Origin: Pedobacter psychrophilus
Lineage (GTDB): Bacteria > Bacteroidota > Bacteroidia > Sphingobacteriales > Sphingobacteriaceae
DNA: 64,000 bases
Reading direction: 5' to 3'
Assembly (NCBI RefSeq): GCF_001652725.1
Contig: NZ_LWHJ01000028.1
Coordinates: forward strand, 124,001-188,000
In this document: positions 47,069 through 50,033 of the stretch, in pieces
How positions within the stretch are numbered: the stretch's first letter is position 1
Layout: each line of letters starts with the position of its first letter
The notes under the pieces: model-generated
Databases searched by the model: none
Seen by the model: only the letters and a program-made list of their open reading frames with translations
What the model was told of the DNA's origin: nothing
Position numbers and translations under genes: made by a program

Positions 47069-47539
47069 CTATTCTGCTAAAACAATCCTAACGCCAGCGT
47101 CGCTAACATTTTTTAAAGGATTATCCCTCATGTTTTGTTCAACTACAATGGTATATTTCCCATTTGTTGGGAATTTATAGTTCTCTTTATAAATCAATTG
47201 ATAACTGTAAAGATTTCCTGATCCATTACCCAACCATTCGCCATCTTGCATTGCCAATTGAAATTCCTGGCGTAAAGGTTCGTCTTTTAGTTTTGGCCCC
47301 AGTAAATGAAATCTCAACCAAATATTGGCATATTTATAATCAGCTGTATGCCTAAAATTTACGTAGATATTATATTTTTTTGTGCTATCGGTAATGTTTA
47401 CAACCGCTTTAATAGGTTTTATATAAGTCCAATTTTCATTAGGGATATGATCAAAAGTATCTACCAAAACATTATTATCACAGGCTTGTAAACCCATAAT
47501 TATCGAAATCAAAAAAATAAAATTCCTTAAAATTTTCAT
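47069..47539 (-). CDS. gldH: Gliding-motility lipoprotein GldH
   Basis: The 156-residue protein has a lipoprotein signal (LISIIMGLQACDNN). The family features are VDTFDHIPNENWTY, FRHTADYKYANIWLRF and the C-terminal NGKYTIVVEQNMRDNPLKNVSDAGVRI. GldH is one of the Gld proteins of the Bacteroidota gliding/type 9 secretion machinery and sits in the envelope. Its ATG overlaps the stop of the PSP1 gene (TAATG), so the two are translationally coupled. It is the last gene of the M16-hpt-holB-ricT-gldH run. Confidence 0.92.
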   Translation of the reverse strand: MKILRNFIFLISIIMGLQACDNNVLVDTFDHIPNENWTYIKPIKAVVNITDSTKKYNIYVNFRHTADYKYANIWLRFHLLGPKLKDEPLRQEFQLAMQDGEWLGNGSGNLYSYQLIYKENYKFPTNGKYTIVVEQNMRDNPLKNVSDAGVRIVLAE

Positions 47540-48873
47540 TAATCCTGACTAGGTTTTTCATTATTGTTATTCGGTCTTCTTTTCTTATTCCTGTTTTTAT
47601 TTGGCTTTGGTTTATTTTCTGTTGCCGCGTTTTGGTTTGGATTGTTTAAATCCGCTGTTTTTAATTTAGGAATATTTGTTTTGTTAGGATTATTTTCTTC
47701 CTTATTTAATTGATTCGGGTTTTTATCCGATCTGCTTTTTGCCTTGTTTTTATTATTGTTTTTATTCTTATTCCTTTTATCGTCTAAACGCGTTAAACTA
47801 TCCTGACCAACAACATTTTCATAATCAAAAGATTTTTCTGCGGATTTTAACTCCTCCATAATTAAAGCTAAATCCCTTAAATCTTCGGGTTTTTCGCCTC
47901 TTTTATTCATTTCCTGAACCTCTTTAACCCTACTTACTTCTATAGGAATCCAGGTGTTATCCTCCCCAAAATAAGTATACCACATAATTTGTTTAAATAT
48001 GTCGGTTTTTTGAAGCCTTGCTTCGCCTTTTTCTGTTTTTAATCTATCCGCATTATCTGGAATGGTTTTTAAAGCATCCATATAAGTATCTAGCTCATAA
48101 TTTAAACAACATTTCAGCTTTCCGCATTGCCCTGCTAACTTTAGCGTATTTAAAGAAAGGTTTTGATAACGAGCTGCTGAGGTTGAAACTGTTTTGAAGT
48201 CTGTTAACCAAGTGCTGCAGCATAATTCTCTTCCGCAAGAACCGATTCCGCCCAATCTACTCGCTTCTTGACGCATTCCGATTTGGCGCATTTCTATACG
48301 AACCCTAAAAGCTTCTGCAAGCTTTTTTATTAGTTCTCTAAAATCTACTCTTCCTTCTGCGGTATAATAAAATGTAGCTTTAGAGCGATCTCCTTGATAT
48401 TCGACATCGCTCAATTTCATAGCCAAACCCAATTCTAAAGCAATAGTCCTAGATTTATGCATCGTTTCAGATTCACGCTCTTTGGCGTTTTTCCATTTGT
48501 CAACATCTTGTGGAGATGCTTTTCTATAAATTTTTAACGGTGCTTTTTCTTCTGTAACTTTTTTACGGTTCATTTGCATACGCACCAACTCGCCCGTAAG
48601 GGTAACATGACCAATATCATAACCTCCTGTAGTAGTTTCTACTGCAACTAATTCACCCGCTTCTAGATAAATATTCTCGTCGTTTCTATAAAAATCTTTT
48701 CTAGCGCCTTTAAACCTTATTTCTACATAAGGAAATGGCTTATAATTTATTGGCAAATCCATATCAGACAACCAATCATAAACATCTAATTTACTGCAAC
48801 CGCCGTCTGTTAAACAAGAACCGTTACTTTGCAACCTGCAGGCGCACATCCGCCTGATGAACAACTTCCACAT
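47539..48873 (-). CDS. PSP1/RicT-family protein, N-terminus apparently frameshifted
   Basis: The main part (residues about 40-290) is a PSP1 domain, with FPYVEIRFKGARKDFYRN, TGGYDIGHVTLTGELVRMQM and CGRELCCSTWL ending in a Cys-rich patch. After it comes a low-complexity Asn/Lys-rich tail. The start at 48873 gives MWKLFIRRMCACRLQ, unlike relatives. Another frame from 48878 encodes MGCGSCSSGGCAPAGCK, the usual Cys-rich start, and runs into a stop. Adding one A to the AAA at 48828-48830 restores KSNGSCLTDGGCSKL. RicT-like proteins help RNA-processing complexes in Bacillus. It overlaps gldH by one base and follows holB closely. Confidence 0.85.
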   Translation of the reverse strand: MWKLFIRRMCACRLQSNGSCLTDGGCSKLDVYDWLSDMDLPINYKPFPYVEIRFKGARKDFYRNDENIYLEAGELVAVETTTGGYDIGHVTLTGELVRMQMNRKKVTEEKAPLKIYRKASPQDVDKWKNAKERESETMHKSRTIALELGLAMKLSDVEYQGDRSKATFYYTAEGRVDFRELIKKLAEAFRVRIEMRQIGMRQEASRLGGIGSCGRELCCSTWLTDFKTVSTSAARYQNLSLNTLKLAGQCGKLKCCLNYELDTYMDALKTIPDNADRLKTEKGEARLQKTDIFKQIMWYTYFGEDNTWIPIEVSRVKEVQEMNKRGEKPEDLRDLALIMEELKSAEKSFDYENVVGQDSLTRLDDKRNKNKNNNKNKAKSRSDKNPNQLNKEENNPNKTNIPKLKTADLNNPNQNAATENKPKPNKNRNKKRRPNNNNEKPSQD

Positions 48874-48881
48874 CCCATATT

Positions 48882-50033
48882 CTATAATAATATATTAGAG
48901 TCCGCTTTGTGGCGGAACGTATTAAACTTTAAAATTTTGACCAATACCAAAGATACATCTAAAAATAATATTTTAGGATTGGCATTTCTCTCGATATGAT
49001 ATATGGCTCTTTCTAATTCTTCAGAAATGGCTTCTGCTTTTGCCAAATCTAAAACCGTGGAAAATTTACTAATAAATTCTAACTCTTTTTCTGGTAAATG
49101 AATTAACCCAGGAGTTTCTGCGATAAATAGCATACATTCTCTCATTAAATTAATTCCGTATCGCAAAAAATTCTTTTGGTTTTCTCTGCCCATTTTTGCA
49201 AGTTCACCCTCAGTATATTCAACTATTTTTAGCCCATTGTTTTGCCAACAAGACCTTAGCCATTGCAAAAAAACCTCATGATAATCGTTGTCTTGTGTGG
49301 TTAATAATTGTAATGCGGTTTGTAAATTTCCATTACTTAAATAGGCTAATTGTTTTGCTTGGTCTGGTTTTAATCCTTTTTGTGATGATAAATATTCTTC
49401 TATTTCTTCGTTTCTTAATTTTGGAATCTTAACCAATTGTGTACGAGAAATAATGGTATTCAAAATTTGATCTTGATTTTGCGCAACCAACAAAAACAAG
49501 GTTTTTTGAGACGGCTCTTCAACAACTTTTAAAAGTGCGTTGCCTTCCTTTTCTAAATATTCTGGCAACCATAAAATCAAAACTTTATATTCCGATTCAA
49601 ATGGTTTTAAACTAAGTTTACTAATGATGCTATGCGCTTCGGCGATGTTGATGTTGGCTTGTTTATTATCGGCGTTTAGTTGGTCTCTCCATTCGTCTAA
49701 TCCTAAATATGGATTGTTTAAAAATGCTTTTCGCCACTCCTCGATAAAGGTTAACGCGGTATCATCTTTATGTTTGGCAAAAAAGGGATAGGAAAAATGT
49801 AAATCAGGATGAACTAATTTATTGTATTTTCTACAAGAAGAACATTCGCCACAAGAATCCTCTTCGGTTTTATTTTCACAACAAATGTATTGAGCATAAG
49901 CAATTGCTAAAGCCAAACCTCCGCTTCCTTCTGGTCCGAGAAATAATTGAGCATGGCTAATCCTTTCATCTTTAACGGTTTGTATAAGATGTTTTTTAAC
50001 CGCTACTTGGCCTACAATATCTTTAAATTGCAT
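48882..50033 (-). CDS. holB: DNA polymerase III subunit delta' (HolB)
   Basis: The 383-residue protein has the clamp-loader fold. QLFLGPEGSGGLALAIAYAQYI is a P-loop-like region, followed by a four-Cys zinc module (CCENKTEEDSCGECSSC). The SRTQLVKIP sensor-like stretch is typical. The Walker A is degenerate (EGSGGLA), as expected for delta', which does not hydrolyse ATP. It works in the clamp loader that places the beta clamp on DNA. It is 20 bases downstream of hpt and three upstream of the likely original start of the PSP1 gene. Confidence 0.9.
   Translation of the reverse strand: MQFKDIVGQVAVKKHLIQTVKDERISHAQLFLGPEGSGGLALAIAYAQYICCENKTEEDSCGECSSCRKYNKLVHPDLHFSYPFFAKHKDDTALTFIEEWRKAFLNNPYLGLDEWRDQLNADNKQANINIAEAHSIISKLSLKPFESEYKVLILWLPEYLEKEGNALLKVVEEPSQKTLFLLVAQNQDQILNTIISRTQLVKIPKLRNEEIEEYLSSQKGLKPDQAKQLAYLSNGNLQTALQLLTTQDNDYHEVFLQWLRSCWQNNGLKIVEYTEGELAKMGRENQKNFLRYGINLMRECMLFIAETPGLIHLPEKELEFISKFSTVLDLAKAEAISEELERAIYHIERNANPKILFLDVSLVLVKILKFNTFRHKADSNILL

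Follow-up and report, generated by a model that had tools for sequence, protein, structure and literature searches.

The ricT gene (PSP1 / RicT_YaaT family) carried on the minus strand, at 47539-48878, of the 64,000-nt stretch of Pedobacter psychrophilus DNA analysed here (the window) is out of frame near its start: it lacks one A when compared with the four-A run of most relatives, and its Cys-rich MGCGSC...CK start is thus in a different frame from the rest of the protein. This frame break is most likely an artefact and not a real feature. The window (contig C28, positions 124001-188000) belongs to a draft genome of 3,999,136 bases in 33 contigs, and comparison with related genomes argues strongly that the missing A is a base-calling or assembly error made in that draft.

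The gene was identified by its PSP1 domain (PF04468, E 2e-33, 115 bits against a cut-off of 27) and by its match to the RicT_YaaT_fam model (NF041131, 267.7 bits, cut-off 70). A tblastn search with the RicT protein of Pedobacter segetis as query covered it from 48878 down to 47542, the match being split over two frames. Two genes on the same strand, both with an open frame, flank it. The upstream one (48882-50033) is a holB-like gene for the DNA polymerase III delta' subunit (PF13177, E 7.5e-40; the TIGR00678 score, 163.1 bits, is under that model's cut-off of 180.6), and the downstream one (47069-47539) is the gldH lipoprotein gene (PF14109, E 4.7e-37; TIGR03511, 107.7 bits against a cut-off of 78.7). 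A genome search revealed no second copy of ricT in the window genome, and a structure search found no solved structure related to P. segetis RicT.

Read from the ATG at 48878, the 5' piece of ricT (48810-48878, minus strand) encodes MGCGSCSSGGCAPAGCK, then VTVLV, and ends on a TAA (48812-48810); its residues 1-17 show 100% identity to P. segetis RicT. The long frame present in the mechanical list of open reading frames (47539-48873, minus strand, 444 aa) starts at an out-of-frame ATG, at 48873, which sits five bases after the true one; its product begins with MWKLFIRRMCACRLQ-SNGSCLTDGGCSKL, so that 15 unrelated residues precede the true RicT frame. A DNA alignment with five relatives placed the apparent one-base deletion in an AAA run (48828-48830, minus strand; it reads TTT on the plus strand): the relatives display AAAAGT, or a variant of equal length, where the window has AAAGT. 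The frames and the comparison with relatives therefore bear out the original prediction, which had put a one-base frameshift at the Cys-rich start, had proposed that one A restored in this AAA run would join the two frames, and had noted that the gene as written starts at 48873 with unrelated residues. It had also stated that the first frame hits a stop; there is indeed a stop, the TAA mentioned above, although the frame continues for five codons beyond the K before reaching it.

The presence of an ATG shortly after the true start is not peculiar to the window. Among 123 distinct relatives, 106 have one five bases past the true start, and the frame behind it is open to the NG codons in 68 and closed in 38. 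Because it is found at the same offset in so many relatives, this overlapping ATG is not an adaptation but a side effect of the MGCG codons.

The Cys start and the Fe-S core are encoded in one frame at all of the 138 related loci (134 found by script and 4 by eye), as opposed to the window, where the arm is encoded in another frame. These loci were drawn from a 41-genome search (29), from the best 80 of 577 matches (80) and from the best 30 of a phylum sample (29). The set leans towards close relatives and contains some genomes twice, the 134 script-found loci corresponding to 123 distinct proteins. In the 41-genome search, 39 genomes gave a match (G010 and G037 gave none) and the best 30 places became loci. 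The loci that seemed devoid of the Cys motif turned out to have it: for 13 of 109 the search pattern excluded HDWL, for 4 of 138 there were other start codons or FNWL, and inspection by eye revealed the Cys start in both groups. As to the run itself, AAAAGT is present in 84 of the 123 distinct relatives, and the 12 commonest six-base versions cover 116 of them. Alignment of the N-terminus with that of close relatives, which had been suggested as a check, thus gave a single frame in all related loci examined.

The nearest named relatives, among the best 80 of 577 matches, are Pedobacter species, with P. segetis first. The RicT protein of P. segetis SD-b is 87-90% identical to that of the window, and its first 33 residues, MGCGSCSSGGCAPAGCKSNGSCLTDGGCSKLDV, are identical when the two frames of the window are read separately; the difference is that P. 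segetis has one unbroken frame, with TGTAAAAGTAAC there versus TGCAAAGTAAC in the window. Since P. segetis carries these 33 residues in one frame, the split start is no chance resemblance. Searching the window genome with the same protein gave two matches, covering residues 1-18 and 16-428. Upstream of the gap, three bases differ from P. segetis. None of these substitutions changes a residue when the original frame is read; reading the shifted frame gives three codon changes (Arg/Gly, Leu/Val and Gln/stop, the stop being in P. segetis). If the gap were real, these three silent changes, though few, would fit with an original frame that was under selection up to very recent times.

RicT proteins of the class have an N-terminal arm with 5-6 Cys, of which the P. 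segetis form is MGCGSC-x4-C-x4-C-x5-C-x5-C (48780-48878 in the window). When 198 genomes of the phylum were searched with P. segetis RicT, 131 gave a match and 67 gave none. The window genome aside, every one of the 48 genomes of the family or class that matched aligns from residue 1-3, as do 13 of the 82 matching genomes outside the class. As judged from these alignments, the Cys-rich arm is conserved throughout the Bacteroidia-class RicT genes sampled and, in view of the latter proportion, is not universal in the phylum. A literature search found, in the portions of the publications that it returned, no report or test of a role for this arm.

The Fe-S core of the window RicT frame is whole: it spans 44 residues (CGRELCC...CGKLKCC) and has the C-x4-CC...C-x4-CC arrangement of the family, the same 44-residue span being found in all of the 123 distinct relatives that the script retained. 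The core Fe-S cysteines of RicT are intact whether the missing A is an error or real; the earlier claim that the normal Cys cluster is lost holds for the N-terminal arm only. Bacillus subtilis RicT (YaaT; NF041131, PF04468) resembles the window protein by the family match, by the six core cysteines (C-x4-C-C ... C-x4-C-C) and by their spacing: in the window the first cysteine of one motif and that of the other are 37 residues apart, which equals the distance from C161 to C198 in the published residue numbers (PMC6751060). In the part of that report drawn on here, B. subtilis RicT binds Fe-S clusters and acts with partner proteins on RNA processing, with C161, C166, C198 and C203 ligating cluster 1 and C167 cluster 2; the difference is that the arm cysteines of the window protein's relatives are not among the ligands named in it (PMC6751060).

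Two other breaks of the window genome affect genes that must be intact. On contig C11 (82798-87095), the gene which we take, from recognition of its sequence, to be rpoC is interrupted, at about 85635, by what looks like the deletion of one base (GGG to GG); four relatives have CACGTGGGTGG there, one further row (L190) being set aside because of its wrong orientation. It consists of a 958-aa piece and of a second frame from 85635, so that RpoC is cut at about residue 952 of 1440 and PF04998 is found in two pieces at this locus. In the other genomes with an RpoC match the frame is open (16 of 16, 1430-1445 aa), the G029 match showing one TAA. The rplP gene (ribosomal protein L16, PF00252; C11:266529-266949) has an apparent two-base deletion at about C11:266705; it is in two pieces in the window genome and in one piece in 16 of 16 other matching genomes. 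Both rpoC and rplP are single copy in the window genome. An RpoC without its C-terminal third, or an L16 without over half of its length, is incompatible with life, and the two splits are almost certainly sequence errors. Since a living cell cannot carry rpoC and rplP as written, the window assembly holds indels that are false and that strike indispensable genes, as is the case for draft-assembly indel errors. The likeness to the false frameshifts generally known from draft genomes lies in the uncompensated nature of the indels, in the location of several of them in short one-base runs and in the fact that essential genes are hit; rplP departs from this, with two bases lost and no simple change in run length.

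The frequency of such indels was assessed by tblastn, with the proteins of two relatives against the window genome DNA and the reverse. The regions covered were 378 kb of C28 and the first 400 kb of C11; the coding sequence compared amounted to 52,652 + 18,376 codons (about 213 kb), and this type of comparison misses breaks close to gene ends. After hand-checking, uncompensated indels were found in 5 of 209 gene comparisons in the window genome versus 0 of 214 in the relatives (Fisher p 0.029), both directions comparing largely the same genes; when all uncertain candidates were kept, the values were 6/209 versus 2/214 (Fisher p 0.13). The first total is the sum of the B-to-A (146) and D-to-C (63) runs, and the second that of the A-to-B (150) and C-to-D (64) runs. 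The cross runs (D-to-A 17, A-to-D 17, B-to-C 4 and C-to-B 4) were left out of both counts; among them, only D-to-A gave a candidate, which was ricT again.

The seven candidate rows in the window genome (B-to-A 4, D-to-C 2, D-to-A 1), in which ricT is counted twice, lead to five broken genes: ricT, an M3-type peptidase gene, an NtrY-like kinase gene, rpoC and rplP. Their indels are of mixed kinds (three -1, one +1 and one -2). A few candidates were discarded. B164, a match of 16 residues with 56% identity at the start of a gene, was too uncertain to be retained. Of the four P. segetis rows of the A-to-B run, two mirror the window genome's own breaks (peptidase and ricT); the other two, A153 and A160, fall before what is probably the true start, and were rejected on visual inspection of the DNA. 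A118 (C28:146585), listed by the DNA aligner as a frameshift, contains none (ATG TTA TTG GGA versus ATG CTT ATT GGC). The 30 + 38 clusters given by this aligner were mostly gene ends or aligner noise, and the tblastn counts were used in their place.

The genes presumed, from recognition of their sequences, to code for the M3-type peptidase and the NtrY-like kinase are frameshifted relative to P. segetis (C28:28774-30890 and C28:259833-263529, respectively). The former has T5 for T6 and the latter one extra base in an A/T run; for these two, the frameshift may be either an error or a mutation.

Because false indels exist in the assembly and the gap contradicts all relatives examined, the ricT gap is most simply an error. 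This conclusion depends on rpoC and rplP, and not on the indel count, since the p value of the latter is fragile (0.029 versus 0.13). We infer that the ricT indel shares the cause of those in rpoC and rplP: a short run would have been undercalled, AAAA being read as AAA, and the real gene would be an ordinary RicT gene starting at 48878 and endowed with the Cys-rich arm MGCGSCSSGGCAPAGCKSNGSCLTDGGCSKL. The mixed nature of the five indels means that no one mechanism of error is established. What runs counter to an error is the quality of the assembly (completeness 99.92%, contamination 0.11%) and the size of its contigs, which are short (18 of 33 contigs probed) and compatible with a short-read assembly; miscalls of a four-A run are rare in assemblies of that type. 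The alternative of a genuine deletion of one base, very recent and at a plausible site (a four-A run), is unlikely given the constancy of the arm in all relatives examined; moreover, the impossible indels of rpoC and rplP mean that unsupported indels of the window genome merit little trust. Such a deletion would have translation start at 48873 and 15 foreign residues replace the first part of the arm, with a core that still works or a gene that is being lost. It would be tolerable to the extent that the core cysteines are intact and that the new-frame ATG, located five bases past the old one, lets the rest of the protein be made. Nor would a ricT mutation have to be lethal, since, according to the part of the report drawn on here, a Riemerella anatipestifer transposon mutant disrupted in a PSP1-domain gene could be obtained, its haemolysis being greatly reduced (PMC7881567).

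Besides an assembly error, the original prediction had envisaged altered metal binding and recoded decoding. The former would apply only if the deletion were real, and then only to the N-terminal arm. The latter, in which the frames would be joined, to give a normal RicT, by ribosomes shifting -1 or by transcriptional slippage at the AAA, is very improbable. In its favour, both halves are conserved at high identity, and the silent upstream substitutions suggest past selection on the original frame; the relatives, however, need no shift, and the other broken genes would need different kinds of shift at unrelated sites. The sequence TTGCAAAG contains, by inspection, no X-XXY-YYZ heptamer, and an AAA is too short for polymerase slippage. 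With no slippery heptamer seen by inspection and with single-frame relatives, ricT does not qualify as a programmed -1 frameshift gene. It is scarcely conceivable that the genome is correct as written and that RicT, RpoC and L16 are all made by frequent ribosomal frameshifting at non-standard sites. An assembly error is the option that gains from the finding that rpoC and rplP are also out of frame.

To conclude, in the 213 kb of coding sequence compared, the window assembly has 5 uncompensated indels, or approximately one every 43 kb. At that rate, lone frameshifts taken from it without the reads provide no basis for proposing a pseudogene or recoding. Were the deletion real and the start at 48873, four arm cysteines would be lost and the Fe-S core would be kept. 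As biology, the ricT break is probably without importance.
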